Position numbers and translations under genes: made by a program. Source: Sinomicrobium oceani (GTDB lineage: Bacteria; Bacteroidota; Bacteroidia; Flavobacteriales; Flavobacteriaceae). Taken from it: 64,000 bases of DNA. Below are positions 6,740 through 32,713 of this stretch, piece by piece (the first letter of the stretch is position 1; every line of letters begins with the position of its first letter). Location of the stretch: assembly GCF_900119185.1 (NCBI RefSeq), contig NZ_FPJE01000012.1:121766-185765 (forward strand), in the 5' to 3' direction. The notes beneath the pieces were generated by a model. The model worked only from the letters and a program-made list of their open reading frames with translations. It searched no databases and was not told the origin of the DNA.

Positions 6740-8827
6740 ATGATAGAGAAAAAGACCGTATATGAGTGCCTGAAAACCTATTTTGGTTATGATACGTTCC
6801 GCCCTAACCAGGAAGAAATCGTAACGGATATCTGCGAGGGTAGGGATGTTCTCGCTATTATGCCCACCGGGGGAGGGAAATCGCTGTGTTTCCAGTTGCC
6901 GGCTCTGATGCTGGAAGGAACTGCCGTAGTCATTTCCCCACTTATAGCTTTGATGAAAGACCAGGTTGACGGTTTGCGTGTCAATGGGGTGGAAGCGGCT
7001 TGTTACAACAGTAGCCTTTCTTCCGAAGCGCAATCCGGATTATGGGAAAGCCTGCGCGACGGAAACCTGAAACTTTTATATGTGGCTCCCGAGAGCCTGT
7101 CGCAGCTTATACCGTTGTTGTCCGGTTGTAAAATAAGTATGGTCGCGGTCGATGAAGCACATTGTATATCTGCCTGGGGCCACGATTTCCGTCCGGCCTA
7201 TACCAGGCTTCACGATCTGAAAGACCATTTCCCCGGGGTGCCGGTAGCTGCTTTTACAGCAACGGCAGATGCTGCTACGAGAGAAGATATCGTACGGCAA
7301 TTGAATATCCCTGCAGCAGTACGGTATATGGCTTCTTTCGATCGGAAAAACATCTGTCTTGAAGTCCGGCCGGGAACAGACCGTCTGAAACAGATTCTCA
7401 GTTTCCTGGACAACAGAAAGGAGGAGAGCGGAATTATTTATTGTACAAGCCGTAAATCTACCGAAAAACTTGCCGCCCGTTTACAAAAGAACGGTTATGA
7501 GGCAGGAGCTTATCACGCCGGCATGCCTCCTGAGGAACGTATTTCCGTACAGGAGGATTTTATCAACGACAGGATTCATGTGGTCGTGGCTACTATTGCC
7601 TTTGGGATGGGAATAGATAAGAGTAATGTGCGATGGGTTATTCATTATAATATGCCCAAAAATATCGAAGGATATTACCAGGAAATAGGACGTAGCGGAA
7701 GGGACGGACTCCCGGCACATGCGCTATTGTTCTATAGCTTTGCGGATGTCGTACAACAGCGGAAGTTTATAGACGATTCTTCAGCAAAGGACGTTCAGCT
7801 TGCCAAACTCGAACGTATGCAGCAATTTGCCGAAACGCTGCATTGCAGGAGAGGGACTTTGCTCAATTATTTCGGTGAGCAGTTGCCGCAGGATTGCGGA
7901 AACTGCGATGTATGTATGTCGCCTCCCGAATATTTTGATGGCACTGTACTGGCCCAGAAAGTATGTTCGGCGGTAGTGCGGTTAAAAGAAAGCGAATCGC
8001 TCGGAATGCTTGCCGATGTGCTTCGCGGAGCACAGAATGCAGCCGTTCTGGAAAGAGGGTACGATAAAATAAAGACGTATGGAGCCGTGAAAGAGGTATC
8101 CTGGAAAGATCTGCAACAGTATATTATACAGATGATCAACCAGGGGATACTCGATGTACGGTTTCAGGAAAACAGCAGGCTGGTCCTTACATCTTTGGCC
8201 AGGGAGATCCTTTTTGAAAGCAGACCGGTAAGACTGGCCAGATTGGTTCGTCCGGATAAAGAGACTTCCCGGAAAAAGCAGCAAAAAAAGAAGGAAGGAG
8301 AGACACTTTTCGGAAAACTTCGTGCCTTGAGATCGGAAATAGCCGTAGAAGAGCACGTCCCTGCCTACGCTGTTTTTAATGATGCCACTTTACGCGATAT
8401 GGAAGAAAAACAACCGGAAGATACAGATGCTTTTGAGGGTATAACCGGGGTCGGGAAAATCAAAAAAGAGAAATATGCCGATCGTTTCCTCCATGTAATC
8501 CGTGTCTATAAAGCATCCCGGCAAAAAAAGCTTCCCACACACGAAGAAACCTATGTGTTGTATCAAAAAAACATACCGCCCGAGGCGATTGCGGCACAGC
8601 GCGAACTCCGTATAGATACGATTATGGGGCATTTGCTTAAAAAGAAAGAAGAAGAAGGAACTGCCATAGATCTTATGGAGTTTATGACACCCGAAGAGGT
8701 TACCGCTGTAGGTGAAGCCTTAAAGGAAATCGGTGATACGGATGCTTTGAAGCCGTATTTCGATCACTTTGACGGAAATATGCCCTATTGGAAAATAAGA
8801 TACGGGCTGTACCTGTTGAATACCTGA
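6740..8827 (+). CDS. recQ: ATP-dependent DNA helicase RecQ
   Basis: 695 residues, SF2 helicase unwinding DNA 3'-5' in recombination and fork repair. Order: helicase core with Walker [14 protein letters not shown] (about residue 40), DEAH box [16 protein letters not shown] (about 138), motif [14 protein letters not shown] (about 315); a RecQ zinc module with cysteines in [13 protein letters not shown] (about 370-395); winged helix; HRDC-like segment [15 protein letters not shown] (about 570); and a C-terminal HTH_40-type extension ([20 protein letters not shown]). The length is typical of the Bacteroidota form with the extra C-terminal domain. It ends 10 bases from the convergent AraC gene. 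Confidence 0.95.
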
Positions 8828-8836
8828 AGACAAGGC

Positions 8837-9685
8837 TCAGCCTTCGCGGTACTCGGACGGGGAAACACCCTTACTCCGTTTGAAGATGCGGTGGAAATAA
8901 GAAAGACTGTTAAAACCGGAAGCATAGCATACGTCCGAGATCGTGAGCGAATTATGCGCATCGAGTAACGATTTACAGGCAAACCCCACACGGATATCAT
9001 TCAGAAATGATACAAAGGACTTACCGGTCTTTGCTTTAAAATACCTGCAAAAAGCGGTTTTATTCATCCCGGCGTAAGAAGCGATATCAGCCAGGCTCAG
9101 TTCTTCATGAAAATGAAGCATGATATACTGGAGGATTTTGTTCAGTTTTCTGTCGCTCGAATTAAACTGGTCTATCCATGCCGGGGTGGCGAGATGAACC
9201 TTTTCTTTGTGCTGAAGATGGTACAATATTCGCATAAAATGTAAGGTACTTTCCTGTATGCCGCCTTTCAGGGTTTTCCGGAATATTTTAAAGGCTTTTT
9301 TACCGGGATCGGGGAAGAGTAATCCTGTGACGGCATGTTTGACCAAAGATGGGATATATCCGAATTCGACATTGTTTTCGAAGAAGCTCCTGATAAAGGG
9401 ATCTCCGAAATGCACGACATAGGCTTCGGAGATTTCCTCATCATCCGGGTTTAGAGAGGCCGGAGACGATTCGAACATGTGAGGCAGGTGTGCTCCGATC
9501 AGGAAAACATTACCGGGCTGATACGGGCCTATATAGTCTCCTGCGTAGATCGTGCCCCGTCCCCTGGAGATGTAAACCAGTTCGTATTCCGGGTGGTAAT
9601 GCCAGAGTTTCAAAAATTCTTTTTCCCGGTGAAGTGCAACTTTAAGATTTGTTTCCAGGTTTTTATGCAGGAAATGTAAATCCAT
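8837..9685 (-). CDS. AraC family transcriptional regulator of the fucose locus
   Basis: 282 residues from the ATG at 9683-9685. Residues about 1-150 form a cupin-type ligand-binding half (FLKLWHYHPEYELVYISRG, GNVFLIGAHLPHMF). Residues about 180-280 hold the double helix-turn-helix (SLADIASYAGMNKTAFCRYF and ISDVCYASGFNSLSYFHRIF, ending GVSPSEYRE). It is divergent from the altronate dehydratase-like gene; the intergenic region has divergent -7 boxes around a 15-base palindrome, so it probably regulates itself and the fucose genes. The ligand is unknown; fucose or fuconate would be logical. An upstream in-frame extension would cross the promoter, so I chose the internal start. Confidence 0.88.
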   Translation of the reverse strand: MDLHFLHKNLETNLKVALHREKEFLKLWHYHPEYELVYISRGRGTIYAGDYIGPYQPGNVFLIGAHLPHMFESSPASLNPDDEEISEAYVVHFGDPFIRSFFENNVEFGYIPSLVKHAVTGLLFPDPGKKAFKIFRKTLKGGIQESTLHFMRILYHLQHKEKVHLATPAWIDQFNSSDRKLNKILQYIMLHFHEELSLADIASYAGMNKTAFCRYFKAKTGKSFVSFLNDIRVGFACKSLLDAHNSLTISDVCYASGFNSLSYFHRIFKRSKGVSPSEYREG

Positions 9686-9737
9686 ATACCATTTTTTAAC
9701 GACAATACGTTTTGAGCAAATATTGTACAATTGATGG

Positions 9738-9780
9738 CAAAGATATAAGAACTTTTCGTTACGAAAACTATTTACTTTTG
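9738..9780. promoter_or_regulatory. divergent promoters around a palindromic operator
   Basis: The palindrome TTTTCGT-T-ACGAAAA occupies 9753-9767. On the minus strand a -7 box TATCTTTG lies at 9745-9738 (towards the AraC gene); on the plus strand TACTTTTG lies at 9773-9780 (towards the altronate dehydratase-like gene). The palindrome thus occupies the -33 zone of both promoters, the expected place for a shared regulator site. The assignment to the AraC protein is inference. Confidence 0.6.
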
Positions 9781-9879
9781 ATATTCGGGAAATGGTGTTT
9801 TCCTGAAATGGAGTCATAACGACTTATAATGGCATGATAAAGCCTCTTGAAGGAAGATGACATTTAGGGATAGTCCGTT

Positions 9880-11544
9880 ATGCAGGTCTTATTTTTTAAT
9901 ACTATATTATTTTATATCCGGTTGGAAAAAATTTTAAGAATTCATCCGGGGGACAACGTTGTTGTAGCCCTTACGGATCTGGACAAAGATGCTGATGTTG
10001 TCGTAGCCGGAAAAGCGCTTCGATTGCGCGAGGCGGTTCCGGTAAAACACAAGTTTACACTCGAACCTATGCGGGAAGGAGATACTGTTTTTATGTATGG
10101 AGTTCCTGTAGGTAAGGTCGTAACGGATTTATCTGCCGGGAGCCTTCTCACTACGGAGAATACCAGGCATGTAGCCGCTCCTTATGCAATAGGTTTACAG
10201 AACTATACCCATGAAAAACCGGATGTAGATCGGTATCTGAACCGTACTTTCAACGGGTTTCACCGTAAGGACGGTCAGGTAGGTACCGGGAATTACTGGT
10301 TGTTCGTGCCCCTGGTATTCTGTCAGAACCGGAACCTGAAAGTGCTGCAGGAAGCTCTGGAAACCGAACTCGGTTTCCGGAAAGAAAATCCGTATAAGCT
10401 TCTCGTCAGGGATCTTGCGGATAAATTCAAAGGTGGGGAAAAGGAAGGTCATTACGAAACGAAAAAGAGCCCGAAACTCTTCCCGAATATAGACGGAATT
10501 AAATTCCTGCTCCACGAAGGAGGTTGCGGAGGAACGCGACAGGATGCGCAGTTGCTGGTAGATCTTCTTGCCGGATATATCCGGCATCCCAACGTAGCAG
10601 GTGCTACGGTGCTGAGTCTGGGGTGTCAGCACGCCCAGATGACGATGCTCGAAGAGGCTATCGCCAGGCATAGGCAGGAGCTCGGAAAACCTCTGTTGTT
10701 TTTTGAGCAACAGAAATATCCTTCGGAGCATGCGATGCTTCAGGATATTATCCGGGACACTTTCGAAGGCCTGAAGGAAGCCAATGAAAATTCGAGAAAA
10801 CCCGCACCATTAGAAAAACTGACTATCGGGCTCGAATGTGGGGGATCGGATGGTTTTTCCGGAATTTCAGCCAATCCGCTGATCGGCGTTATAGCCGACC
10901 GGATCAATGCGCTTCGGGGTAAAAGTATCCTCTCGGAATTCCCGGAATTGTGCGGGGTAGAGCAAGACCTTATCGATCGTTGCGAACGAAAAGAAACAGC
11001 GGAGAAATTTGTCCGCCTGATGGAAAACTATGAAGCCAGGGCCCAGGAAGTAGGTTCAGGGTTTGATATGAACCCGTCTCCGGGAAATATCAGGGACGGA
11101 CTGATCACCGATGCCATTAAATCGGCAGGAGCGGCGACGAAAGGTGGAAGAAGTGCAGTTGCCGATGTACTCGATTATGGAGAGTATGCAACCCGGGAAG
11201 GGCTGAACCTGCTCTGTACCCCAGGAAACGATGTGGAGTCTACCACAGGACTGGCAGGTGCAGGAGCCAATATGATTCTCTTTTCTACCGGACTGGGGAC
11301 ACCTACCGGAAACCCGGTATGTCCGGTTGTGAAAATTGCATCCAATTCTATGCTTCCCGAAAAAATAAACGATATTATCGACTTTGATGCGGGAAGACTT
11401 TTTTCCGAAGGGATATCTCAGGAACTGTTAGCCGATGAGCTTATGGAGCTGATTATAGCAGTAGCAGGCGGAGAGAAGCAGACCTGTGCACAAAAGTTAC
11501 AGCAAGACGATTTCATTCCGTGGAAAAGAGGAATATCTTTGTAA
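9880..11544 (+). CDS. altronate dehydratase (UxaA) family protein, probable L-fuconate dehydratase
   Basis: Up to 554 residues. An N-terminal SAF domain (KILRIHPGDNVVVALTDL) is followed by the large UxaA/GarD catalytic part, with GGCGGTRQDAQLL, LGCQHAQM and GLECGGSDGFSGISANP. These Fe-dependent enzymes dehydrate sugar acids to 2-keto-3-deoxy acids. The cluster lacks an enolase-type fuconate dehydratase, so this enzyme is the likely L-fuconate dehydratase; substrate is inferred from context. The first 14 residues after ATG 9880 are unlike the family; a TTG at 9922 would start right at the conserved part, so the true start may be 9922. Confidence 0.85.
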   Translation: MQVLFFNTILFYIRLEKILRIHPGDNVVVALTDLDKDADVVVAGKALRLREAVPVKHKFTLEPMREGDTVFMYGVPVGKVVTDLSAGSLLTTENTRHVAAPYAIGLQNYTHEKPDVDRYLNRTFNGFHRKDGQVGTGNYWLFVPLVFCQNRNLKVLQEALETELGFRKENPYKLLVRDLADKFKGGEKEGHYETKKSPKLFPNIDGIKFLLHEGGCGGTRQDAQLLVDLLAGYIRHPNVAGATVLSLGCQHAQMTMLEEAIARHRQELGKPLLFFEQQKYPSEHAMLQDIIRDTFEGLKEANENSRKPAPLEKLTIGLECGGSDGFSGISANPLIGVIADRINALRGKSILSEFPELCGVEQDLIDRCERKETAEKFVRLMENYEARAQEVGSGFDMNPSPGNIRDGLITDAIKSAGAATKGGRSAVADVLDYGEYATREGLNLLCTPGNDVESTTGLAGAGANMILFSTGLGTPTGNPVCPVVKIASNSMLPEKINDIIDFDAGRLFSEGISQELLADELMELIIAVAGGEKQTCAQKLQQDDFIPWKRGISL

Positions 11545-11628
11545 AGACTCCGGATATATCACAGAGTTCGGAAACCTGGAGATTCCGGGGAGAGAATAGC
11601 CGTTGAATTCAGATAAAATTAACAGAAT

Positions 11629-12384
11629 ATGTCAAAAAATGTAATTATAACCGGAGGTGGATCCGGTATAGGAGCAGCGATAACCAGGATATTTCTCGAA
11701 AAAGGGCACAAGGTTTTTATGCTCGAGAGAAATACCGGGGGGGCAAAAGAGGCTTTTGCCGGAACCGAAGACACCCGGCTGCAGATTATTCCCTGTGATG
11801 TAAGCAACCAGGCACAGGTGGTAGAAATTATCAACGGGATAGCTGGTAAAACGACCATAGATATTCTTATCAATAATGCCGGGGTATCTCATATAGGTAC
11901 GGTCGAAACGACTTCCGAACAGGATATGGATAACGTATTTGCCGTCAATGTAAAAGGAGTTTATAACTGTATCCATGCCGCTATACCTCACATGAAAAAG
12001 AACGGAGGAGGGGTCATACTCAATATGGCATCTATCGCATCTCATGTAGGGATAGCCGATCGTTTTGCCTATTCGATGACCAAAGGAGCCGTATTGGCCA
12101 TGACATACTCCGTGGCTAAAGATTATGTAGCCGATGGTATTCGTTGCAACAGTATTTCTCCGGCAAGGGTGCATACCCCTTTCGTAGACGGTTTTCTGGC
12201 AAAGAATTACCCGGGAAAAGAAAAAGAGATGTACGATAAGCTTTCCAAAACCCAGCCCATCGGGCGAATGGCCAAGCCGGAGGAAGTCGGTAAACTTGCC
12301 TATTTCCTGTGTTCCGAAGATGCTTCTTTTACAACCGGTACCGATTATCCTCTGGATGGCGGATTTATAAGACTAAACAGCTAA
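11629..12384 (+). CDS. SDR oxidoreductase, probable 2-keto-3-deoxy-L-fuconate dehydrogenase
   Basis: 251 residues, classical short-chain dehydrogenase. Cofactor motif TGGGSGIG (about residues 8-15), NNAG (about 83), catalytic Ser in MASIASH and YSMTK (Tyr and Lys of YxxxK, about 148-152), ending in PLDGGFIRLN. In the known non-phosphorylative L-fucose route an NAD-dependent SDR oxidises 2-keto-3-deoxyfuconate at C4. Its place between the dehydratase and the FAH-family hydrolase fits that step. It starts 84 bases after the dehydratase and is followed within 43 bases by the hydrolase, so one operon is likely. Confidence 0.85.
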   Translation: MSKNVIITGGGSGIGAAITRIFLEKGHKVFMLERNTGGAKEAFAGTEDTRLQIIPCDVSNQAQVVEIINGIAGKTTIDILINNAGVSHIGTVETTSEQDMDNVFAVNVKGVYNCIHAAIPHMKKNGGGVILNMASIASHVGIADRFAYSMTKGAVLAMTYSVAKDYVADGIRCNSISPARVHTPFVDGFLAKNYPGKEKEMYDKLSKTQPIGRMAKPEEVGKLAYFLCSEDASFTTGTDYPLDGGFIRLNS

Positions 12385-12427
12385 GGAAAAAAAAGTTCAA
12401 TTACATAAATTCATAAATACACAACGA

Positions 12428-13288
12428 ATGAGATTATTCAGATTTGGACCGGAAGGCGAGGAGAAACCCGGAGTGGAATTGCAGGATGGCACTGCGCTGG
12501 ACGTAAGCGCCTTCGGACAGGATTACGATGAAGATTTTTTTGCCGGAGACGGTGTCCGCAAACTGGGGGCCTGGTTAGAACAACACAAAGACAACTGCCC
12601 GGTAGTTGAGGGAGAATTCCGTTTCGGTCCTGTAGTCAAACGACCTTCCAAATTGATCTGTATTGGGCTGAACTATGCAAAGCACGCTGCGGAAAGCGGA
12701 ATGGATGTGCCCAAAGAACCGGTGGTTTTCTTCAAAGCCACTTCTTCGATCACAGGGCCCAACGATCCGGTTATTATTCCGAGAGGTTCGGAAAAGACCG
12801 ATTGGGAAGTCGAACTGGCCGTAGTTATCGGTAAAAAAGCTTCTTATGTGAATAAAGAAGAAGCTATGGATTATGTTGCCGGATATGCGCTGCACAACGA
12901 CTACAGTGAAAGAGCTTATCAGCTCGAACGCGGAGGACAGTGGGTAAGGGGAAAGAGTTGTGATACTTTTGCTCCGCTCGGGCCATACCTGGTTACGGCT
13001 GATGAAAAACTCGACCCGCACCATCTCAATCTCTGGTTGAAAGTCAACGGAGAAACATTACAGAATTCCAATACTTCCGATTTTATTTTTGATATCCCTA
13101 CGGTAATAAGTCACCTCAGTGAATTCATGACGCTGCTTCCCGGAGATGTGATCTCTACGGGGACGCCTGCGGGAGTGGGACTCGGTTTTCAACCACCGCG
13201 GTATCTCAAGGCCGGCGATGTGGTAGAACTCGGAATAGAAGGGCTCGGTTCCTCAAGACAGGAAGCTGTCGCTTATAAAGCAAAATAA
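12428..13288 (+). CDS. fumarylacetoacetate hydrolase family, probable 2,4-diketo-3-deoxy-L-fuconate hydrolase
   Basis: 286 residues. N-terminal cap followed by the FAH barrel: KLICIGLNYAKHAAESG, VFFKATSSITGPNDPV, a metal-binding EVELAVVIGKK, GYALHNDYSER, RGKSCDTFAPLGP and VISTGTPAGVG. The family hydrolyses C-C bonds of diketo acids with a divalent metal. In the fucose route the equivalent enzyme splits 2,4-diketo-3-deoxyfuconate into pyruvate and L-lactate, which explains the downstream LutABC genes. A hairpin terminator follows the gene. Confidence 0.88.
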   Translation: MRLFRFGPEGEEKPGVELQDGTALDVSAFGQDYDEDFFAGDGVRKLGAWLEQHKDNCPVVEGEFRFGPVVKRPSKLICIGLNYAKHAAESGMDVPKEPVVFFKATSSITGPNDPVIIPRGSEKTDWEVELAVVIGKKASYVNKEEAMDYVAGYALHNDYSERAYQLERGGQWVRGKSCDTFAPLGPYLVTADEKLDPHHLNLWLKVNGETLQNSNTSDFIFDIPTVISHLSEFMTLLPGDVISTGTPAGVGLGFQPPRYLKAGDVVELGIEGLGSSRQEAVAYKAK

Positions 13289-13295
13289 ATCCGGT

Positions 13296-13330
13296 AAAAG
13301 GCTCAGGAGATGTGTTTCCGGAGCCTTTTG
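13296..13330 (+). terminator. intrinsic terminator after the FAH-family gene
   Basis: AAAAGGCTC (13296-13304) pairs with GAGCCTTTT (13321-13329) around a loop that can add GGA/TCC pairs. The T-run is inside the 3' arm, so it may be partial read-through rather than full stop, consistent with the next gene starting 33 bases later. Confidence 0.65.
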
Positions 13331-13362
13331 TATAGTATCTAACACCTAAAAGATCAATCAGA

Positions 13363-14187
13363 ATGTATATCGATTCACATCAGCATTTCTGGCAATATCA
13401 CCCGGAGAAGGATGCCTGGATAGACAAAACCATGCAGGCCATACGCCGGGACTTTATGCCTTCCGATCTTGAGCCCGTTCTTCATGCCAATGGGGTCTCG
13501 GGATGTGTAGCGGTTCAGGCCAGTCAATCTGAAGAAGAAACGTCTTTTCTTTTGGAATGTGCCGATAAAAATCCGTTCATAAAAGCGGTAGTTGGCTGGG
13601 CAGATCTTCAGGGAGATAATATTAAAGAAACGTTACTCCGGTTTTCGGAGCATAACCGTTTTCGGGGTGTACGCCATGTCGTACAGGGTGAACCGGACGA
13701 TTTTATGTACCGTCCGGCCTTCCGGAGGGGAATTGAAGAACTCGAGCCCCTGGGGCTTACTTATGATATTCTCGTTTTTGCCAGGCAATTGCCTGCCGCC
13801 ATAGATCTCGTACGCCGGTTCCCGAAACAGCGTTTCGTACTGGACCATATCGCCAAACCGGTTATCTCTGCAGAGCCTGATAAAGCCTGGGCAGATCATA
13901 TTCGTATTCTTGCCGGGCATGATAATGTGTGCTGTAAGGTGTCGGGGATGGTAACGGAAGCTACGGACCGGACATGGAAACAAGAGGAGTTTACACCTTT
14001 TATGGAGGTTGTAACCGAGGCCTTCGGAACAGACCGGGTCATGTACGGATCGGATTGGCCGGTATGCCTGCTGGCTGCATCCTATGCAGAAGTCATAAAT
14101 ATTGTCCGGGCATTTTACAGCGAAGATGAACTTCCTAAAGTTATGGGAAAGAATGCAGCGGATTTTTACGGGATTACAGCTATTTAA
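13363..14187 (+). CDS. amidohydrolase family, probable L-fucono-1,5-lactonase
   Basis: 274 residues of the COG3618 TIM-barrel amidohydrolases. Metal and catalytic segments are IDSHQHFWQYHP (HxH, about residues 5-7), RHVVQGEP, FVLDHIAKP (about 160) and MYGSDWPVC (Asp, about 228). The family includes L-fuconolactonase and L-rhamnonolactonase, which open the lactone made by the sugar dehydrogenase. The fucosidase follows 35 bases later. Specificity for fuconolactone comes from the neighbours. Confidence 0.87.
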   Translation: MYIDSHQHFWQYHPEKDAWIDKTMQAIRRDFMPSDLEPVLHANGVSGCVAVQASQSEEETSFLLECADKNPFIKAVVGWADLQGDNIKETLLRFSEHNRFRGVRHVVQGEPDDFMYRPAFRRGIEELEPLGLTYDILVFARQLPAAIDLVRRFPKQRFVLDHIAKPVISAEPDKAWADHIRILAGHDNVCCKVSGMVTEATDRTWKQEEFTPFMEVVTEAFGTDRVMYGSDWPVCLLAASYAEVINIVRAFYSEDELPKVMGKNAADFYGITAI

Positions 14188-14222
14188 AAGTATGAACCAA
14201 CCATAAATTAAAAACCCGATAT

Positions 14223-15638
14223 ATGAAAACTTTACGATGGACAGTATTGATCGTCTTATGGATGGCAAGCTGCAAACAAAAACCGGCGGCAAACACTACA
14301 ACTGAAAAGGTTGTTCCCGAAAAAAGTGTCAATTACCTGGAGGAGTCCGAAGAAGATTTTGACGAACGTATGGCCTGGTGGAGAGACGCGAGGTTCGGAA
14401 TGTTTATTCACTGGGGGGCTTATGCCGTTCCGGCAGGAAGGTACCAGGGGAAAGAAGTGGCAAGCGTGGGAGAGTGGATTATGCAAAATGCCAAAATACC
14501 GATAGAAGAATACGAAGAATATGCCCGGAAGTTTAACCCGACTTCGTTTGATGCCGAAAAATGGGTTGCTACAGCAAAAGATGCGGGAATGAAATATATG
14601 GTGATTACCTCAAAGCATCACGATGGGTTCTGTCTTTGGGATTCGGAGGTAACCGACTACGATATCGTGGATTATTCTCCTTACGGAAAAGATATTCTGA
14701 AGGCTCTTTCCGAGGCCTGTAAGAAGCAGGGCATAAAATTCGGGCTTTATCATTCTATAATGGACTGGCATCATCCCGATTCACATGCCGATACTTACGC
14801 AGGAGGAACGCCCTCGGAAAATAACGAAGCCCGTTTTGCAAATTACCTGGAAAATTACCTGAAGCCGCAACTCAAGGAACTGGTGGAAAATTACGATCCT
14901 GCAATTCTCTGGTTCGACGGGGAGTGGGAGAAAGAGTTTACACACCGCCAGGGACAGGAACTTTATCAGTACGTAAGGACGTTGAAACCCGAAATTATCA
15001 TTAATAACCGGGTAGACAAAGGGAGAAAGGGAATGCAGGGCATGAATAAGGAAGACAGTGATTATGCCGGAGATTTCGGAACCCCGGAACAGGAAGTTCT
15101 GGCAGGGACCTCTGCGCTCGACTGGGAATCGTGTATGACCATGAACGATACCTGGGGGTATAAGACAGATGATAAGAACTGGAAATCTTCACAGAATCTT
15201 ATCCGTCACCTGGTAGATGCTGCAGCCAAAGGCGGAAACTATCTGTTAAATATAGGGCCCGATGCGGCGGGTAATATTCCTGAAGCCAGTTTGGAAAGAC
15301 TGGACGATATAGGGCGCTGGATGAAAGTGAACGGGGAAGCGGTTTACGGTACGGAAAGCCCGGAATCCGGTTTTGAAGAAGGAGACGATATACGGTTTAC
15401 GGCCAAGAAGAGTACGCCTTTCTGTTATGCGGTGACCTTTAAAAGACCAGAGAATACTTTCCGTCTTAAAAATCTGAAACCCGAAGCCGGATCGGAAATC
15501 AGGCTGCTCGGATATGAACAGCCGCTGACATGGGATTACCAGGAAGATTCCGGACTCGCCATTTCCGTTCCCGCAACCGTTTTAGAGCAAGTAGGAGAGA
15601 CACCTGCCTGGACATTTAAGATAGAGACCCGGAAATAG
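14223..15638 (+). CDS. alpha-L-fucosidase, GH29, lipoprotein
   Basis: 471 residues. The N-terminus MKTLRWTVLIVLWMASCKQK is a type II signal peptide with the lipobox cysteine at residue 17, so the enzyme is probably lipid-anchored in the envelope. GH29 features: WWRDARFGMFIHWGAYAVP (about 55-73), YMVITSKHHDGFCLW, FGLYHSIMDWHHPD, and ILWFDGEWE (about 237-245), whose Asp is the expected nucleophile; a C-terminal beta domain is present. It releases L-fucose from fucosylated glycans and so feeds the FucP and oxidative pathway genes that surround it. Confidence 0.93.
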   Translation: MKTLRWTVLIVLWMASCKQKPAANTTTEKVVPEKSVNYLEESEEDFDERMAWWRDARFGMFIHWGAYAVPAGRYQGKEVASVGEWIMQNAKIPIEEYEEYARKFNPTSFDAEKWVATAKDAGMKYMVITSKHHDGFCLWDSEVTDYDIVDYSPYGKDILKALSEACKKQGIKFGLYHSIMDWHHPDSHADTYAGGTPSENNEARFANYLENYLKPQLKELVENYDPAILWFDGEWEKEFTHRQGQELYQYVRTLKPEIIINNRVDKGRKGMQGMNKEDSDYAGDFGTPEQEVLAGTSALDWESCMTMNDTWGYKTDDKNWKSSQNLIRHLVDAAAKGGNYLLNIGPDAAGNIPEASLERLDDIGRWMKVNGEAVYGTESPESGFEEGDDIRFTAKKSTPFCYAVTFKRPENTFRLKNLKPEAGSEIRLLGYEQPLTWDYQEDSGLAISVPATVLEQVGETPAWTFKIETRK

Positions 15639-15825
15639 AATAGGGTAGCTAAAGGTCGGTTTTCTGTAATCAGGAAATCAAGGGCCCAAATTTTGCGAAG
15701 CATATCATGGGAGGAGAATAAAACAATATAAAATGCAAATGTTAAATCCTTAATATTAGGGTGTGGAAATTTTTTTTAAGCTAATTTTAGCCCTTAAATT
15801 GTGTCGGAAATAGGAAAATGAAGGT

Positions 15826-16608
15826 ATGAACTTACATTTAGATAAAAAAGTGATCATCGTTACCGGTGGAGCCAAGGGGATAGGTTTGGGTATATGTGAA
15901 GTTTTGGCGGCTGAAGGGGCGATCCCGGTATTAGTAGGAAGAAATGAGGCAGATAACGAGAAGGCTGTGCGGGCTATTCTTGACAACGGAGGGCAGGCTG
16001 ATTCGGTCATAGGTGAACTCACCGACCCGGAAGCCTGTAGGAACGCGGTAGCACAGGTAGTGTCCCGATACGGTAAAATAGATGGTTTGGTCAATAATGC
16101 GGGGGTTAATGACGGTGTGGGGCTCGAAAACGGATCGTATGAGCTTTTTACGGCCTCCATACAGAAGAACCTGACACATTATTACCTTATGGCACATCAT
16201 GCCTTGCCCGAACTCAAAAAGACAAAAGGGGCAATTGTAAACATAGGTTCCAAAACATCGCTGACCGGCCAGGGCGGGACTTCCGGTTATGCTGCCGCTA
16301 ATGGCGGACGTAATGCGCTGACCAGGGAATGGGCTGTGGAACTGCTGCCGTATGGAATCCGGGTCAATGCCGTGATCGTTGCGGAATGCTATACGCCCCT
16401 CTACGAAAAGTGGATCAATACCTTTCCGGATCCCAAAGAAAAGCTGAACACCATAACAGAAAAAATCCCATTAGGTCACAGGATGACTACCGCAACGGAA
16501 ATTGCCGATGCCGTAGCTTTTCTGTTATCCGAAAAATCGAGTCATACCACCGGGCAGCTCTTGTTTGTCGATGGAGGCTATGTACATCTGGACAGGGCAC
16601 TGACCTGA
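15826..16608 (+). CDS. SDR oxidoreductase, probable L-fucose dehydrogenase with YxxxN instead of YxxxK
   Basis: 260 residues. TGGAKGIGLGI (about residues 12-22) binds the cofactor; NNAGVND (about 89) and VNIGSKTS (catalytic Ser region) are normal. The catalytic tetrad lysine, however, is asparagine: the segment reads GYAAANGGRNAL, with codon AAT. The C-terminal part (GIRVNAVIVAECYTPLYEKW, FVDGGYVHLD) is that of sugar dehydrogenases near fucose genes. The role would be oxidation of L-fucose to the lactone. The other SDR of this locus retains YxxxK. Whether the Asn is normal for this subfamily must be checked. A 187-base gap with no recognised element precedes it. Confidence 0.78.
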   Translation: MNLHLDKKVIIVTGGAKGIGLGICEVLAAEGAIPVLVGRNEADNEKAVRAILDNGGQADSVIGELTDPEACRNAVAQVVSRYGKIDGLVNNAGVNDGVGLENGSYELFTASIQKNLTHYYLMAHHALPELKKTKGAIVNIGSKTSLTGQGGTSGYAAANGGRNALTREWAVELLPYGIRVNAVIVAECYTPLYEKWINTFPDPKEKLNTITEKIPLGHRMTTATEIADAVAFLLSEKSSHTTGQLLFVDGGYVHLDRALT

Positions 16609-16628
16609 AAAAACAGGAAATAGTTTCC

Positions 16629-16648
16629 GGATGCTCCCCGGAGCATCC
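16629..16648 (+). repeat. perfect hairpin between fucose dehydrogenase and fucP
   Basis: GGATGCTC-CCCG-GAGCATCC (stem 8 bp, loop 4) lies 21 bases after the SDR stop codon. There is no T-run, so it is more likely an mRNA stabiliser or attenuating hairpin than a terminator. Confidence 0.5.
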
Positions 16649-16718
16649 CCAAACCCGCTTATTAGATTACCCGTAATTACACCCAATATCAATCAATTTA
16701 ATTAAAACTCATAACATA

Positions 16719-18023
16719 GTGAAGAAAGACACATTACCTCCTGTGGTTTCGCGGAAAAACCTCATTCCATTTATTTTAGTAACCTCTTTATTTGCCCTCT
16801 GGGGCTTTGCCAATGCGGTTACGGATCCCATGGTACAGGCTTTCAAGAAAGTCCTTGAACTCAGTAATTCACAGGCTGCCTGGGTACAGATGGCATTTTA
16901 CGGAGGATATTTTTGTATGGCCCTGCCCGCTGCGCTTTTTGTCCGAAAATACTCTTATAAAACAGGAGTACTTATAGGGCTCGCTTTGTATGCAGGTGGA
17001 GCTTTGTTGTTTTATCCTGCAGCCATCACCGAAAAATTCTGGTTTTTTTGCCTGGGATTGTATATCCTGACATTCGGACTGGCTTTTCTCGAAACTACGG
17101 CAAATCCTTATATTCTTGCTATGGGAGATAGCAGGACAGCTACACAGCGACTCAACCTGGCTCAGGCCTTCAATCCGCTGGGACTGGTACTCGGCCTATT
17201 GGTAGCTCAGCAGTTTGTGCTCAGAAAGCTGCAATCTGTGGATGTGCAAGATTTCGGGGCGCTGGACGAGGCTTCCAAAGTGATGATCCGTACCTCCGAT
17301 CTTATGGTAATACGCGATCCGTATGTAGCTCTCGGCCTGGTGATTCTCGCCGTATTTGTGTTCATATTTGTCAGTAAAATGCCTCAGGTCAAGGACGAAG
17401 GTGGTATTCCGGGGCTTGCCGATACGTTTTCCGGACTTTTTAAGAATAAAAAATATACCCTCGGCGTACTGGCCCAGGTACTCTATGTAGGAGCACAGAT
17501 TATGTGCTGGACCTATATCTACCAGTATGCGGAAGCTATCAATGTGAGTAGTGATGATGCGGCTTATTACCAGTTTATAGCCTTTATTCTCTTCCTGGTA
17601 GGACGTGCCATAGGAACCTATATGCTTCGTTTTATGAGTTCCGGAAAGTTACTGATGTTATTCGCTTTCTTAGGGATAGCATTTGCTGCAGGAGCCATCT
17701 GGATAGAAGGAACTTTAGGAATATATTGTATCGTAGGAATATCTTTTGCCATGTCTTTGATGTTCCCCACCATTTACGGGATTGCTCTGGAAGGACTGAG
17801 TGAAGAAGAATCCAAGATAGGTGCAGCGGGTCTGGTTATGGCTATTGTAGGAGGTGCTTTGATGCCGCAGTTGCAGGCTCTTATCATCGATATAGGAGGT
17901 TCCGGGGTGGCAGATGTCACTATTGCCGGAGTACCTGAGGTTAATTTTTCGTTTATATTGCCTTTGTTGTGCTTTGTGTATATCAGTGTGTACGGAAAAT
18001 GGGTACACAACAAGGTATATTAG
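16719..18023 (+). CDS. fucP: L-fucose:H+ symporter, MFS
   Basis: 434 residues beginning at a GTG. About 12 transmembrane segments. FucP signatures: LFALWGFANAVTDPM (first helix), QAAWVQMAFYGGYFCMALPA, TFGLAFLETTANPYILAMG (motif of fucose/glucose-galactose permeases) and NLAQAFNPLG. It imports L-fucose across the inner membrane with protons. It sits after the fucose dehydrogenase and 188 bases before the mutarotase gene. That gap holds only a GGGGCT/AGCTCC hairpin near 18103-18118. Close relatives transport other hexoses, but the enzymes around it support fucose. Confidence 0.92.
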   Translation: MKKDTLPPVVSRKNLIPFILVTSLFALWGFANAVTDPMVQAFKKVLELSNSQAAWVQMAFYGGYFCMALPAALFVRKYSYKTGVLIGLALYAGGALLFYPAAITEKFWFFCLGLYILTFGLAFLETTANPYILAMGDSRTATQRLNLAQAFNPLGLVLGLLVAQQFVLRKLQSVDVQDFGALDEASKVMIRTSDLMVIRDPYVALGLVILAVFVFIFVSKMPQVKDEGGIPGLADTFSGLFKNKKYTLGVLAQVLYVGAQIMCWTYIYQYAEAINVSSDDAAYYQFIAFILFLVGRAIGTYMLRFMSSGKLLMLFAFLGIAFAAGAIWIEGTLGIYCIVGISFAMSLMFPTIYGIALEGLSEEESKIGAAGLVMAIVGGALMPQLQALIIDIGGSGVADVTIAGVPEVNFSFILPLLCFVYISVYGKWVHNKVY

Positions 18024-18211
18024 TACACCGGGAACCAACCGAGGTGTAGTAGGCAGTATTCGGGAAGGCAACATAAGAATCGGAGAACACTATTGTATTT
18101 ATGGGGCTTCGTAGCTCCGGACTTTGAATAAAACGGAGGAGAGAGACTGTGATACTACACGAACAGATAACTGAACTATAAATTGTGGAGAATCCCGAAC
18201 AGTGAAAAAAG

Positions 18212-18553
18212 ATGAAACGGTATTGTTTAGCTTTAGATTTAAAAGATGATGAACGGCTGATTGCCGAATATGAAACACATCATCAAAAAGTTTGGCCCGA
18301 GGTGCTGAAAAATATTTGTAAAAGCGGTATTATCGATATGGAAATATACCGTATTGAAAACCGGTTGTTGATGTTGATGGAGACAGATGACGGTTTCAGT
18401 TTTGAGCAAAAAGAAGAACTCGATGCGGCCAGTGAAACTGTTCAGGAGTGGGAAAAGCTCATGTGGAAGTACCAGCAGGCTATTCCGGGAAGCAAACCCG
18501 GTGAAAAATGGCGCCTGATGAATAAGATCTTTGATTTTAAAACAGCATTGTAA
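18212..18553 (+). CDS. L-rhamnose mutarotase family protein (probable L-fucose mutarotase)
   Basis: 113 residues, the size of the RhaM/DUF718 dimeric alpha-beta barrel. MKRYCLALDLKDD is the usual start; the likely acid/base histidine is in YETHHQKVWPEV; LLMLMETDDGF and WEKLMWKYQQAIP complete the fold. These proteins interconvert the alpha and beta anomers of 6-deoxy sugars. In this locus the substrate should be L-fucose, giving the anomer used by the dehydrogenase. The stop codon overlaps the lutA start by one base (TAATG), tying it to the lactate genes. Confidence 0.85.
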   Translation: MKRYCLALDLKDDERLIAEYETHHQKVWPEVLKNICKSGIIDMEIYRIENRLLMLMETDDGFSFEQKEELDAASETVQEWEKLMWKYQQAIPGSKPGEKWRLMNKIFDFKTAL

Positions 18554-19281
18554 TGACCGTAGGATTATTTGTCCCCTGTTACATAGATCAGCTATATCCC
18601 AAAGTAGGGAGAGATACACTGGAAGTTCTGGAAAAAGCAGGTTGTAAAGTCGTTTTTTTGCAGGATCCGTTGTGTTGCGGACAGCCTATGGCGAACAGCG
18701 GATATGAAAGCAAGACCCGGGATTTTGAAAAACCTTTTCTCAAAGTACTGCCCGAGGTAGATTATCTCGTAACGCCATCGGCCAGTTGCTCATATCATTT
18801 GTCCCATCACTTGTTGAAACCCTTTGTAGCAGCAGAAGAACTTGCCAAGGTAAAAGAACTGACGGAGTTTCTGCATGATATAATAGGACCGGATAAAATT
18901 CATGCTTCTTTTCCGTATAGGGTAGGTCTGCACCTGTCCTGCCATGGTTTACGCGGGCTCAATCTCGGTACACCTTCCGAGCTAAAGGTGCCCTATTATT
19001 CCAAAATAGAGAAAGTGCTTGCTGCTGTGGACGGACTTGATCTGGTGGTCCCTTCCAAAGCCGATGAGTGTTGCGGATTCGGGGGAAGTTTTGCAGTTTT
19101 CGAATCGGCCGTATCTGTAAAAATGGGATGTGATAAGATGAAGACGATGTCCGGGGCGGAAGTATCGTATGTTGCCGCAACCGACATGTCCTGTCTTATG
19201 CATCTCGAAGGTGTTTTTCGTGCCGAAGAAAGTACTATGAAAGTGATGCATATCGCAGAGATACTCAATGCAGGAGCGTAA
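18553..19281 (+). CDS. lutA: (Fe-S)-binding protein, L-lactate oxidation subunit LutA
   Basis: 242 residues with two CCG domains: VFLQDPLCCGQPMANSGYE (about residue 35-53) and HLSCHGLRG ... DECCGFGGSF (about 140-182). Cysteine-rich CCG repeats bind an Fe-S cluster, as in LutA/YkgE and GlpC. LutABC oxidises L-lactate to pyruvate in Bacillus. It begins one base inside the mutarotase stop codon, so it is translated together with a fucose gene, and is followed by lutB and lutC. This strongly suggests that the lactate comes from fucose breakdown. Confidence 0.9.
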   Translation: MTVGLFVPCYIDQLYPKVGRDTLEVLEKAGCKVVFLQDPLCCGQPMANSGYESKTRDFEKPFLKVLPEVDYLVTPSASCSYHLSHHLLKPFVAAEELAKVKELTEFLHDIIGPDKIHASFPYRVGLHLSCHGLRGLNLGTPSELKVPYYSKIEKVLAAVDGLDLVVPSKADECCGFGGSFAVFESAVSVKMGCDKMKTMSGAEVSYVAATDMSCLMHLEGVFRAEESTMKVMHIAEILNAGA

Positions 19282-19313
19282 ACATTTTGTTTAACCGACG
19301 AAAGAACAAACTG

Positions 19314-20690
19314 ATGAAAGGAACACATGCGAATCTGAGTAAGGGGTTTATAACCGGCTCCGAGAAGACGGACTGGCATAATAATGCACTCTGGTTTTTA
19401 AGGGCCAAAAGAGATATGCAACGGGATACGATTCCCGACTGGGAAAAATTACGAGCCACTGCCGCTGCAATAAAAGACCATACCCTGTCGCGTTTACCGG
19501 AATACCTCCAACGTTTCGAGGAAAATGCCATAAAGAACGGTATACAGGTACACTGGGCATGGGACGATGCTGAACTTCGTGAGATTACAGCTTCTATTCT
19601 CCGGGAAAACAACGCAAAATCCGTAGTAAAGAGTAAGTCCATGCTCACAGAAGAGTGCGGCCTGAACCCTTACCTGGAAAAAGAGGGATTCGATGTCGTA
19701 GATACCGATCTGGGAGAGCGGATCGTACAGTTGCGAAAAGAGCATCCGAGCCACATTGTGGTGCCTGCCATTCACCTGAAAAAAGAAGAGGTGAGTGATA
19801 CGTTTCACGAAAAAATGAATACGGAGAAAGGAAATTCGGATCCCGATTATCTGGCTTCCGCCGCACGGGAAGCACTTCGTAAGGATTTTATGAGGGCCGA
19901 TGCCGCTATTACCGGGGTTAATTTCGGAGTGGCTGAATCCGGTACGGTGGTAGTGTGTACCAATGAGGGGAACGCCGATATGGGAGTACACAGTAAAAAA
20001 ACGGTCATTCACTGTATGGGGATGGAGAAACTGGTGCCCGGGTATAAAGAACTGGCGGTTTTTACGCGTTTGCTCGCGCGTTCCGCTACGGGACAACCCG
20101 TTACCGTTTTTACCTCACATTACAGAAAACCCCGTCCGGAAACTACCGAACATATTATTATAGTAAATAACAAGCGTACCGATATTTTTGAAGATCCGGA
20201 ATTCCGGCAGGCCATGCGTTGTATCCGTTGTGGCGCCTGTATGAATACCTGTCCGGTGTACCGGCGCTCGGGCGGGCATTCCTATCACCATACTGTTCCG
20301 GGGCCTATAGGCAGTGTGCTCGCTCCTTTTTACGGGAAAGAAAAAAATAAAGATCTTCCCTTTGCTTCGACATTATGTGGCTCCTGTAATAATGTATGCC
20401 CGGTGAAAATAGATCTTGCAGGCCTCTTGTACCGGTGGAGACAAAAACTTACGGACGAAACATCACCCGACCTGTCCAAAAAGATAGGGATGGATATCGG
20501 GAGCAAAATACTAAAAAGCCGTACAACTTACAGCCTGGCGACCAGAGCCTTTCGCTGGGTCCCCGGAAGCGTACTGCAATCCGGCCTGAACCCTTGGAAT
20601 GTCACGGCGAAAAACGGGCATAAAGAACGCATATTTCCGGATGTGCCCGGGGAGAGTTTCAGGGAATGGTACAAAAAAAATCAGGAGTAA
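19314..20690 (+). CDS. lutB: iron-sulfur protein, L-lactate oxidation subunit LutB
   Basis: 458 residues from ATG 19314 (a TTG at 19287 would add nine basic residues unlike the family). The N-terminal two thirds are the LUD domain (KSMLTEECGLNPYLEKEG, GVNFGVAESGTVVVCTNEG). Two 4Fe-4S motifs follow: CIRCGACMNTCPVYRRSGG (about residue 304-322) and LCGSCNNVCPVKI (about 353-365). LutB is thought to pass electrons from lactate through the complex to quinones. It lies 32 bases after lutA and 10 bases before lutC. Confidence 0.93.
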   Translation: MKGTHANLSKGFITGSEKTDWHNNALWFLRAKRDMQRDTIPDWEKLRATAAAIKDHTLSRLPEYLQRFEENAIKNGIQVHWAWDDAELREITASILRENNAKSVVKSKSMLTEECGLNPYLEKEGFDVVDTDLGERIVQLRKEHPSHIVVPAIHLKKEEVSDTFHEKMNTEKGNSDPDYLASAAREALRKDFMRADAAITGVNFGVAESGTVVVCTNEGNADMGVHSKKTVIHCMGMEKLVPGYKELAVFTRLLARSATGQPVTVFTSHYRKPRPETTEHIIIVNNKRTDIFEDPEFRQAMRCIRCGACMNTCPVYRRSGGHSYHHTVPGPIGSVLAPFYGKEKNKDLPFASTLCGSCNNVCPVKIDLAGLLYRWRQKLTDETSPDLSKKIGMDIGSKILKSRTTYSLATRAFRWVPGSVLQSGLNPWNVTAKNGHKERIFPDVPGESFREWYKKNQE

Positions 20691-20700
20691 TCGCACAGAA

Positions 20701-21282
20701 ATGATGAACAGTAAGGAAAGAATATTAAACACGCTGAACAAGGTTAGCAGGGACGCGCTTCCCAGACCCGAAATAGAGCTGCAGTATCCTCCTGAGGTTC
20801 TGGTGGAGGATTTTGTACGGATAGCAGAAGCATCGGGAACGGAGGTATTTCTCGCTACCCCCGACACGGTTGCCGATACCGTCCGGAAGTGGAGCAGAGG
20901 GGGAGACATACAGTCCTGTGTTCCCGGCTTACAGGATGAGTTTCCTTTGATATTTGACGAACAAATACCTTTCGACCGGGAGAAAATGCCGGAAGTCTTT
21001 GTTGCCGAAGCTGCTTTCGGGGTGATCGAAAATGCAGCGCTGTGGCTTACGGACAGCGAACTTCGTGCCCGTTTACTGGCTTTTATCCCCGAACGTATTG
21101 TCGTATTGCTCAAAGCCGGGTCTCTGGTGTCTACCATGCACCAGGCCTATGCTATTATCGCTGAAAATGATCCTTTCGGTTTCGGGCTCTTTATGGCGGG
21201 AGCATCCAAAACAGCCGATATCGAGCAAACCCTTGTAAAAGGGGCACAGGGAGCAAAAGAACTGGCCGTAATCCTGTATTGA
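20701..21282 (+). CDS. lutC: LUD domain protein, L-lactate oxidation subunit LutC
   Basis: 193 residues from the ATG at 20701 (ATGATG; the second is equally possible). LUD domain features: AEAAFGVIENAALWLTDSE, RIVVLLKAGSLVSTMHQAY and DPFGFGLFMAGASKTADIE, the last being the conserved C-terminal GPSRTADIE-like segment with a single change. It completes LutABC. The strong hairpin terminator 39 bases downstream closes the fucose locus. Confidence 0.9.
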   Translation: MMNSKERILNTLNKVSRDALPRPEIELQYPPEVLVEDFVRIAEASGTEVFLATPDTVADTVRKWSRGGDIQSCVPGLQDEFPLIFDEQIPFDREKMPEVFVAEAAFGVIENAALWLTDSELRARLLAFIPERIVVLLKAGSLVSTMHQAYAIIAENDPFGFGLFMAGASKTADIEQTLVKGAQGAKELAVILY

Positions 21283-21320: not shown

Positions 21321-21364
21321 AAAAAAGCGAAGGCTGTCCGATAAGGTACAGCCTTCGCTTTTTT
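21321..21364. terminator. bidirectional terminator between lutC and the TlpA gene
   Basis: A 17-bp perfect stem, AAAAAAGCGAAGGCTGT (21321-21337) against its complement (21348-21364), with a 10-base loop. A-run on one side and T-run on the other make it work in both directions between the convergent genes. Confidence 0.93.
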
Positions 21365-29476: not shown

Positions 29477-30472
29477 TTACAGATCGAGCTCGAGTTTATT
29501 AAGTTTTGCTGTAATCTCGGAAATCTCGCTTTTGGAAAGGGATTTTTCCATGGCTTTGGCATTTTGTACAGCCTGAGACTCGTTTCTGGCCCCCACAAGC
29601 GCAATAGTGATGGCGGGTTGTTCCAGCGTCCAGAGTATGGCCAGCTGTCCGAGGCTCAGGCCTTTGGCATCGGCTATAGGTTTGATGCTTTCCAGGAAAG
29701 CGTTGGTTTTCTTTAGGTTCGTATCCTTGAAATATGGATTTGAAGCCCTGTGGTCACCTTCTGCAAACCGGTGTCCGGGTTTCAGTTTGCCTGTGAGTAA
29801 CCCTCTCTGCATAGGGCTGTATGCCAGTATCCCTTTATGATGTTCCTGGCAGTAGGGTACGACGTCTTTTTCGATGTCTCTCTGCACCATGCTGTAGGGA
29901 ACCTGGTTCGAGGCCAGGGAAACATAGTTTTCGGCTTCGGCCATTTGTACGGCATCGTAGTTACAGACCCCGGCATGTCGCACTTTTCCCTGTTCGATGA
30001 GCTGTGCCACAGCTTCCATCGTTTCCTGTATGGGAGTCGTCACATCGGGCCAGTGTATCTGGTAAAGATCAATGTAGTCCGTGCCTAACCTTCGGAGACT
30101 GTCCTCACATTCTTTAATAATACTCTCCTTTCCTGCGTATTTATAGATGTCTATATCCTTACCGTCGTTATTCTTGCTGCTGAACCCGAAATTTCCTTTT
30201 TTAAGGTCCCAGCGCATACCGTATTTGGTGAGGATCTGTACCTGATCTCTCGGAATATCTTTTATAGCTTCTCCTACGATCTCCTCACTGGTGCCCTGTC
30301 CGTATATGGGAGCAGTATCTATAGAGGTTACACCATGGTCATAAGAAGCTTTTATGGCCCGTATGGCATCGTTGCGTTCCGTACCTCCCCACATCCATCC
30401 TCCGGCAGCCCATGCGCCGAAGGTAACTGCAGATATATTCAGATCCGTCTGGCCTAATTTTCTGTACTTCAT
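29477..30472 (-). CDS. aldo/keto reductase
   Basis: 331 residues, NADPH-dependent TIM-barrel oxidoreductase. Segments: SIDTAPIYGQGTSEEIVGEA (Asp and Tyr of the catalytic tetrad, about residues 50-60), LTKYGMRWDL (Lys), DLYQIHWPDV (His), HAGVCNYDA, and AITIALVGARNESQ near the cofactor phosphate. It belongs to the COG0667 subgroup acting on small aldehydes or sugars. Followed on the same strand, 72 bases downstream of its start codon side, by nothing; upstream on the same strand lie the cytochrome c and PQQ dehydrogenase genes. Confidence 0.9.
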   Translation of the reverse strand: MKYRKLGQTDLNISAVTFGAWAAGGWMWGGTERNDAIRAIKASYDHGVTSIDTAPIYGQGTSEEIVGEAIKDIPRDQVQILTKYGMRWDLKKGNFGFSSKNNDGKDIDIYKYAGKESIIKECEDSLRRLGTDYIDLYQIHWPDVTTPIQETMEAVAQLIEQGKVRHAGVCNYDAVQMAEAENYVSLASNQVPYSMVQRDIEKDVVPYCQEHHKGILAYSPMQRGLLTGKLKPGHRFAEGDHRASNPYFKDTNLKKTNAFLESIKPIADAKGLSLGQLAILWTLEQPAITIALVGARNESQAVQNAKAMEKSLSKSEISEITAKLNKLELDL

Positions 30473-32455: not shown

Positions 32456-32713
32456 AAAAAGCGTTGTTTTTAAGTTTTTCTGAATTGCTGTTGTGATACT
32501 AATATGGGTACTATATTGAATGTTCTGAAATTTTTCCTCAAATTGAAATTTTACTTTTAGGGTGCTCTGAGCGTAAAAATGTGATGCTAAAAATAGCACG
32601 TAGTACAAAAATCAACATTTTTCACTACAATCAAAAACCCTGGAGAGGGTTCGTCAAAAAAAGTTACGCTCCTGCCGTAATGATCCTCAAAGCCAAAAAA
32701 CAGAAACGGCTGT

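Follow-up and report, generated by a model that had tools for sequence, protein, structure and literature searches.

A predicted oxidative L-fucose cluster of Sinomicrobium oceani adjoins LutABC genes that likely oxidise its L-lactate product

The genome of Sinomicrobium oceani (5.02 Mb, 99.98% complete) contains a cluster of twelve genes, at positions 8837-21282 of a 64,000-nucleotide stretch of contig NZ_FPJE01000012.1 (hereafter the window), in which a predicted non-phosphorylating L-fucose route adjoins a LutABC system. A sequence-only reading of this DNA had named the twelve genes, and each of them was recovered as an open frame with the expected domains in the open reading frame (ORF) list and domain searches; the order in which it had listed them differs from the genomic one. 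An AraC-family regulator gene on the minus strand (8837-9817; AraC_binding and HTH_18 domains) diverges from eleven plus-strand genes, which begin with a UxaA/GarD-family dehydratase gene (uxaA, 9922-11544; GD_AH_second and GD_AH_C domains) whose start is more likely TTG 9922 than ATG 9880. There follow SDR1 (11629-12384), an FAH-family hydrolase gene (12428-13288), an Amidohydrolase_2 lactonase gene (13363-14187), a GH29 alpha-L-fucosidase gene (14223-15638; PF01120, E 2e-102) with an N-terminus that looks lipoprotein-like by eye, SDR2 or fucDH (15826-16608), fucP (16719-18023), a RhaM-family mutarotase gene (rhaM, 18212-18553; PF05336), lutA (18553-19281), lutB (19314-20690) and lutC (20701-21282). 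Gene by gene, the S. pectinilyticum locus (L038, judged to be the same record as L145 and counted once) corresponds to the window, its proteins being 72-95% identical, with the AraC-family regulator in the same place.

We compared the predicted proteins with curated models and solved structures. SDR2, assigned to step 1 of the route, passes the NCBIfam L-fucose dehydrogenase (FucDH) model NF052481 at 419.8 bits against a cut-off of 300, and FucP passes TIGR00885, the L-fucose:H+ symporter family, at 502 bits against a cut-off of 280. The amidohydrolase is a predicted L-fucono-1,5-lactonase for step 2, with 4dlf as its only PDB relative at E 1e-10. For step 3, UxaA is a predicted L-fuconate dehydratase, a choice of substrate that sequence alone cannot decide; its cysteines 134, 202, 235 and 306 align with cysteines of GarD (6u7l), conserved residues described as the proposed iron ligands of the UxaA/GarD family (PMC6336799). 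Aligned to the solved L-2-keto-3-deoxyfuconate (L-KDF) dehydrogenase 8XWK, SDR1 carries Arg, Arg, Phe and Thr at four ligand positions. This pattern is that of type 4 among the L-KDF 4-dehydrogenase types 1-4, making SDR1 a predicted type-4 enzyme for step 4, and the R-R-F-T pattern is described as active in a Sphingobacterium mizutaii enzyme (PMC11199699). Across the 49 rows aligned, window included, R/R/F and the catalytic Ser-Tyr-Lys are present in every row, and the fourth ligand position is T in 35, S in 13 and A in 1. The closest solved relative of the FAH protein is the L-2,4-diketo-3-deoxyrhamnonate hydrolase 8gsr (E 1e-79), and we predict that it converts 2,4-diketo-3-deoxy-L-fuconate to pyruvate and L-lactate in step 5; the diketo intermediate is described as common to the rhamnose and fucose routes and as cleaved to these two products (PMC11199699). 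The mutarotase has two weak PDB matches, the L-fucose mutarotase 7byu (E 5e-5) and the rhamnose-type 1x8d (E 0.004), which place it, weakly, somewhat nearer to the fucose type and suggest an L-fucose mutarotase. LutA (two CCG stretches), LutB (LUD and Fer4 iron-sulfur domains) and LutC (LUD, PF02589) are encoded side by side, as in LutABC systems.

This enzyme set, that of route 3, is predicted to take L-fucose to pyruvate and L-lactate. GH29 would free fucose, FucP would import it and the mutarotase would supply the right anomer, after which fucose would pass through fuconolactone, fuconate, 2-keto-3-deoxyfuconate and 2,4-diketo-3-deoxyfuconate to pyruvate and L-lactate. Without a further step, half of the fucose carbon would end as lactate; LutABC would turn this L-lactate into pyruvate and pass the electrons onward. 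We put the probability at roughly 84% that the cluster encodes this non-phosphorylating route and that the adjoining LutABC oxidises its L-lactate, yielding a second pyruvate. From gene content and context we infer the activity of each enzyme, induction by fucose, and intracellular lactate as the main substrate of LutABC.

The rhaM stop codon TAA (18551-18553) overlaps the lutA start ATG at 18553 in a TAATG junction, and this overlap, pointed out in the sequence-only reading, is real and recurs in L038, L143 and L144, the other three sister loci that bear lut. The 17-bp terminator it had reported is likewise borne out by a stem search and RNA folding: the plus-strand hairpin at 21321-21364 pairs 21321-21337 with 21348-21364 and folds at -31.4 kcal/mol (z -7.0; unmatched by any of 200 shuffles), and, because it stands between the convergent lutC and a TlpA-like gene, it probably serves both. 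The further claim of one transcription group is doubtful, because a conserved candidate promoter block precedes fucDH. In an alignment of five Sinomicrobium loci, this block (15717-15825, plus strand; about 110 bases, a candidate internal promoter or operator) is strongly conserved in the window, L038, L143 and L144, the four lut-bearing loci, and much weaker in L039, where lut is absent. It contains the inverted repeat GCTAATTTTAGC at 15780-15791, with one base different in L143. The DNA upstream of rhaM is not conserved among the Sinomicrobium loci, and that upstream of uxaA was compared in two loci. The cluster is thus probably two transcription units, the second being fucDH-fucP-rhaM-lutABC, which may tie lut to the entry steps of the route. 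The Bacteroidota -33/-7 promoter consensus had no match in the intergenic gaps, and Rfam had none in the window. Just upstream of the conserved block, Pfam identifies a GH95-family gene between GH29 and fucDH in L038 (L038:7263-9820), and similar ORFs of 789-799 aa occupy that position in L143 and L144; the window has no such gene, and 187 bases (15639-15825) separate its GH29 and fucDH.

To place LutABC in context we surveyed LutB across the order of the host (296 genomes), counting only copies above 400 bits; raw TIGR00273 counts at E 1e-3 were rejected as support, being mostly partial iron-sulfur matches. Fourteen of the 18 strong copies stand in rhamnose clusters, three in oxidative fucose clusters (the window, L120 and L123) and one in neither (L134), so that 17 of 18 lie in L-fucose or L-rhamnose clusters with L-lactate as a predicted product. 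RhaEW is present in 12 of the 14 rhamnose loci, and in L119 it runs off the stretch. In the rhamnose loci L121 and L131, class-II aldolase and aldehyde dehydrogenase are encoded by separate genes accompanied by a kinase homologue, and L121 also has a rhamnose isomerase gene. The strongest argument for L-lactate as the LutABC substrate is that it is the common predicted product of the oxidative fucose, RhaEW and split rhamnose routes.

The association extends to a phylum sample of 395 genomes, in which FucDH was counted by scoring at most six SDR candidates per genome. We found 90 LutB copies in 78 genomes, 37 of them within 15 kb of RhaEW (33) or FucDH (5), one being near both. Treating genomes as independent and leaving ancestry uncorrected, any LutB occurs in 49 of 55 FucDH genomes and 29 of 340 others, or by genus in 27 of 32 with FucDH and 19 of 139 others; restricted to LutB with adjoining LutA and LutC, the counts are 27 of 55 and 15 of 340. 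Of 97 LutB loci fetched, 50 have LutA and LutC, comprising 31 in rhamnose context, three in fucose context, one labelled fucose by hand on account of its uxaA-lutABC-GH29-type genes (L203), and 15 in neither. The remaining 47 form class B, most of them members of a second LutB family of Bacteroidota with no LutC detected alongside (L146-L185, L211, L219 and L222-L225), 33-43% identical to the window LutB; some of its copies also adjoin rhamnose or fucose genes. L194, with a 53%-identical LutB and a LutC match, falls in class B solely since LutA went undetected.

We then asked how LutB copies from the two sugar contexts are related, using a tree of 64 rows from which class B was kept out except as outgroup (five rows chosen, two dropped at under 380 residues) and in which no row of their own was given to L024 and L135 (the window itself) or to L145. 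Fucose-cluster copies are mixed with rhamnose-cluster copies; the fucose label needs eight changes, at least seven forced by supported branches, and these may be gains or losses. A single origin of the association was rejected (one fucose clade, p-AU 0.0008). A single clade, on a long branch, unites the Sinomicrobium copies; L192, which joins them, and the outgroup L211 are among the long branches flagged. The position of lut within the cluster also varies: it follows rhaM in Sinomicrobium (L038), Larkinella (L055 and L082), L072 and L086, SDR1 in L042, L068 and L090, the FAH gene in L123 and L191, and uxaA directly in L203, and in L120 it comes first in the operon beside a divergent araC. Where lut follows rhaM, the two overlap in Sinomicrobium and are separated by 58 bp in L086, by about 0.9 kb in both L055 and L082, and by 1.8 kb in L072. 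A single contig of genome G429 holds two copies of lutAB at a distance of about 95 kb, the first behind uxaA (L203) and the second behind a rhamnose kinase gene (L205), which share 95.7% DNA identity over 2172 bp from just before lutA to about 55 bp into lutC; in the remainder of lutC, a single 185-bp piece aligns, at 73%. This pair is likely the result of a recent copy or of gene conversion between clusters, with the tract edge about 55 bp inside lutC.

Scanning genome contigs with FucDH as the sole query gave at least 551 confirmed loci, of which we examined the best 80, a set that leans towards close relatives. LutB is present in eight, five of them with lut after rhaM as in the window. The sequence-only reading had proposed a comparative search for lut beside fucose genes in Bacteroidota, and that arrangement does recur, at the frequency just given; this count, together with the lack of lut behind the fucose genes of L039, led us to reject the idea that LutABC is a constant component of oxidative fucose clusters. 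Nine other loci of the best 80 hold an LldD-family gene (FMN-dependent, PF01070; NCBIfam L-lactate dehydrogenase models rank first, under cut-off) on the same strand, 3' of fucDH, with fucP and/or rhaM; eight of these genes begin within about 115 bp of the preceding gene, and that of L046 follows after 1.1 kb. None of the best 80 holds both LldD and LutB. Across the phylum sample, 17 of 395 genomes carry LldD, and 16 of these also have FucDH or RhaEW; of the 18 LldD copies, 13 are found within 15 kb of a FucDH or RhaEW gene. G133 has one copy beside FucDH and another beside RhaEW. The 79 genomes with FucDH or RhaEW divide into 54 with LutB only, 10 with LldD only, six with both and nine with neither; scored for LutABC proper, with G454 counted as LutABC, the figures are 35, 15, one and 28. 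Within the genus of the host (six genomes, scored per genome whether or not a fucose cluster is present), LutB occurs in four and LldD in three, at least one of them in every genome: the two genomes that lack LutB have LldD, and one has both. There appears to be a lactate-oxidation slot in Bacteroidota fucose and rhamnose clusters that is filled by LutABC or by the unrelated LldD, with many clusters showing neither.

No competing route was found in the host genome. FucI (PF07881) has no match in it (the control gave a signal in 3/14), and no FucA was found: of the two class-II aldolases (PF00596), one is AraD, encoded in an arabinose operon, and the other a RhaEW-type fusion encoded in a rhamnose operon; FucK was not searched for. 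The sequence-only reading had held that a fuculose-phosphate aldolase encoded elsewhere would speak against it, and with no FucI and these two aldolases we rejected a fuculose-phosphate route elsewhere in the host. On the lactate side, no second LutABC was found in the genome, where LUD matches comprise the window lutB and lutC and one 202-aa frame elsewhere; LldD is absent at E 1e-60 in the phylum search and at E 1e-20 in the genus search, with two partial PF01070 matches at 31 bits; and the lactate permease family PF02652 has no match. The host does hold a second fucose-type locus (L139, contig C48, 1312-10054) with SusC, SusD, GH29, a zinc alcohol dehydrogenase, a fucose dehydrogenase and a RhaM-like mutarotase, and its fucose dehydrogenase is 55% identical and over the NF052481 cut-off; no dehydratase, FAH or lut matches occur within 19.9 kb there.

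Several observations weigh against the proposed route and its coupling to LutABC. Two pathway enzymes fall short of their curated models: the lactonase matches a single NCBIfam model, NF052480, at 270.7 bits under a cut-off of 400, and the FAH protein reaches 346 bits against NF053535, under its cut-off of 500. Association of lut with fucose genes is far from general, since in the sister strain L039 the fucose cluster is not followed by lut, and since neither gene, LutB or LldD, appears in the stretches examined at 63 of the best 80 FucDH loci; both 10-kb flanks are present in 48 of the 80. The co-occurrence counts, as noted, ignore shared ancestry, and they include the second LutB family, nearly half of the fetched copies; when that family is left out, 18 of the 55 FucDH genomes lack LutABC and LldD alike. 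Exchange between LutABC and LldD is likewise imperfect: six of the 79 genomes hold LutB and LldD, G533 alone among them having LutA and LutC beside LutB, and the LldD genes of the genus (L229-L231) have no fucose-cluster genes in the 20 kb around each. The rhamnose cluster L119 holds both LutABC and LldD, and therefore the two can coexist and exchange is not strict. L119 (G256, 8528-19419) brings together RhaEW, a separate class-II aldolase, an aldehyde dehydrogenase, LldD and LutABC, an apparently redundant set of lactate-making and lactate-burning genes. Within the host, finally, the rhamnose operon (L140) has RhaEW without lut, and PF02652 is not the sole lactate-permease family.

A rival reading is that LutABC is a general lactate scavenger that sits beside fucose genes by chance, its main substrate being external lactate or that of another pathway. 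The 15 of 50 LutA- and LutC-bearing loci in neither sugar context would fit such a role (the contig of one, L190, is 5.7 kb long), and lactate formed through the RhaEW rhamnose operon could be a further substrate of the single host LutABC. We nevertheless consider chance placement unlikely, given the concentration of 17 of 18 order loci in L-lactate-yielding deoxyhexose clusters, the repeated change of context in the LutB tree, the presence of LldD behind fucose genes in other loci, the lack of a PF02652 permease in the host and the rhaM-lutA overlap kept in three sister loci. On the same grounds of recurrence and repeated context change, together with LldD in fucose clusters elsewhere, the complementary presence within the genus and the absence of PF02652, LldD and a second LutABC from the host, the earlier proposal that LutABC burns fucose-derived lactate gains support.

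It is slightly less probable still that the cluster's real substrate is D-arabinose, L-galactose (sugars of similar configuration) or L-rhamnose, with fucose secondary. A UxaA/GarD-family dehydratase is described as acting on D-arabinonate, D-altronate, L-fuconate and L-galactonate (PMC6336799), and the FAH and mutarotase families are common to rhamnose routes; against this stand the GH29 gene in the cluster with the GH95-family gene or similar ORFs of the sister loci, the scores of FucP and FucDH over curated cut-offs, and the separate rhamnose operon of the host. Least probable of all, and in our estimate very improbable, LutABC would oxidise another 2-hydroxy acid of the pathway, such as fuconate. 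The window LutB does score under the TIGR00273 cut-off (406.6 bits, cut-off 444.8), as does this lineage in general, with 2 of 296 genomes of the order passing, and this score counts against the main reading too; the same LutABC lineage nevertheless stands in RhaEW and split-route (L121, L131) rhamnose clusters, where no aldonic acid is expected, and an LldD-family FMN enzyme takes its place elsewhere.

Bacillus subtilis LutABC has the same make-up and gene order as the window system, with CCG domains in LutA, LUD and iron-sulfur motifs in LutB and a LUD domain in LutC. The window copy differs from it in standing inside a fucose cluster, in a genome without a PF02652 permease, and in a LutB below the curated cut-off. 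In Campylobacter jejuni, the lut genes presumably lie outside the fucose region. That region resembles the window in its UxaA-type dehydratase, SDR, amidohydrolase, sugar transporter and non-phosphorylative character, and differs in having DapA-like and aldehyde-dehydrogenase genes and no FAH in the portion of the report available, an arrangement we read as route 1 (PMC12566272). The fuc locus of Algoriphagus marincola HL-49 is, like the window, a Bacteroidota oxidative fucose locus with FucP, for which a fuconate dehydratase is reported missing and, in the accessible part of that report, no lactate genes are mentioned (PMC5507952). Route 3 itself, described for Xanthomonas campestris and Herbaspirillum huttiense, runs through six steps that are also predicted here (mutarotase, dehydrogenase, lactonase, dehydratase, KDF 4-dehydrogenase and diketo-acid hydrolase) to pyruvate and L-lactate (PMC11199699). 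The window departs from the route as known in its UxaA/GarD-type dehydratase, where X. campestris has an enolase type, in its type-4 KDF dehydrogenase pattern, as in Sphingobacterium, and in the L-lactate oxidation system built into the cluster.

Lactate oxidation genes have been placed with deoxyhexose catabolism before. A 2013 report found lldD and lldEFG, the latter another name for lutABC (PMC6955870), in rhamnose (RhaR) regulons of Actinomycetales and Rhodobacterales, whose pathways probably extend to pyruvate (PMC3870299). As described there, those regulons concern L-rhamnose via RhaEW and rest on regulon inference (PMC3870299), whereas the window concerns oxidative L-fucose in Bacteroidota; repeated context change, and LutABC or LldD behind the same genes, are what the present comparison sets beside that account. 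Chthoniobacteraceae SH-KS-3 (Verrucomicrobiota) likewise ties LutABC to deoxyhexose use, in an operon with a rhamnulokinase gene for which L-lactate oxidation is proposed, but within a phosphorylating rhamnose/fucose route with lactaldehyde in a microcompartment; the sections available describe no oxidative fucose route (PMC11596606). We found no report in the open-licence literature of LutABC or LldD within oxidative fucose clusters, or of LutABC/LldD exchange, which is weak evidence of novelty. The suggestion that such coupling is little described is half right: the rhamnose version, as far as the parts consulted of these two reports go, is in print for other phyla (PMC3870299, PMC11596606).

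Three features elsewhere in the window are recorded here. Positions 31136-36142 may hold a sugar-oxidation group, encoding a molybdopterin-binding dehydrogenase subunit, a GFO/IDH/MocA oxidoreductase and a GSDH-like protein. ARAGORN calls a tRNA at 29840-29926 with a four-base anticodon (tttt) and of undetermined type, probably a false call because Rfam reports nothing in the window. SusC/SusD-type genes and another outer-membrane receptor gene occupy 48000-60000 at about 50-52% GC, and composition changes sharply at 60000, to about 37% GC onward.

Looking beyond this host, we tentatively propose, at somewhat short of even odds, that Bacteroidota use LutABC largely as a dedicated final reaction of 6-deoxyhexose breakdown, not for scavenging: a portable "lactate terminator" module, in which LutABC and LldD repeatedly replace each other in one slot of fucose and rhamnose clusters and copies within a genome can be kept alike by gene conversion. 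As a rule for annotation, we suggest that LutABC or LldD beside FucDH/FAH/SDR genes or RhaEW be read as a pathway step, with its absence marking candidates for lactate secretion. Sinomicrobium, in which LutB and LldD are nearly complementary, offers a small natural test. If the proposed coupling is true, Bacteroidota that eat fucose-rich glycans in this way would oxidise, and not leak, the half of the sugar that becomes lactate, which would matter for models of carbon flow and cross-feeding.

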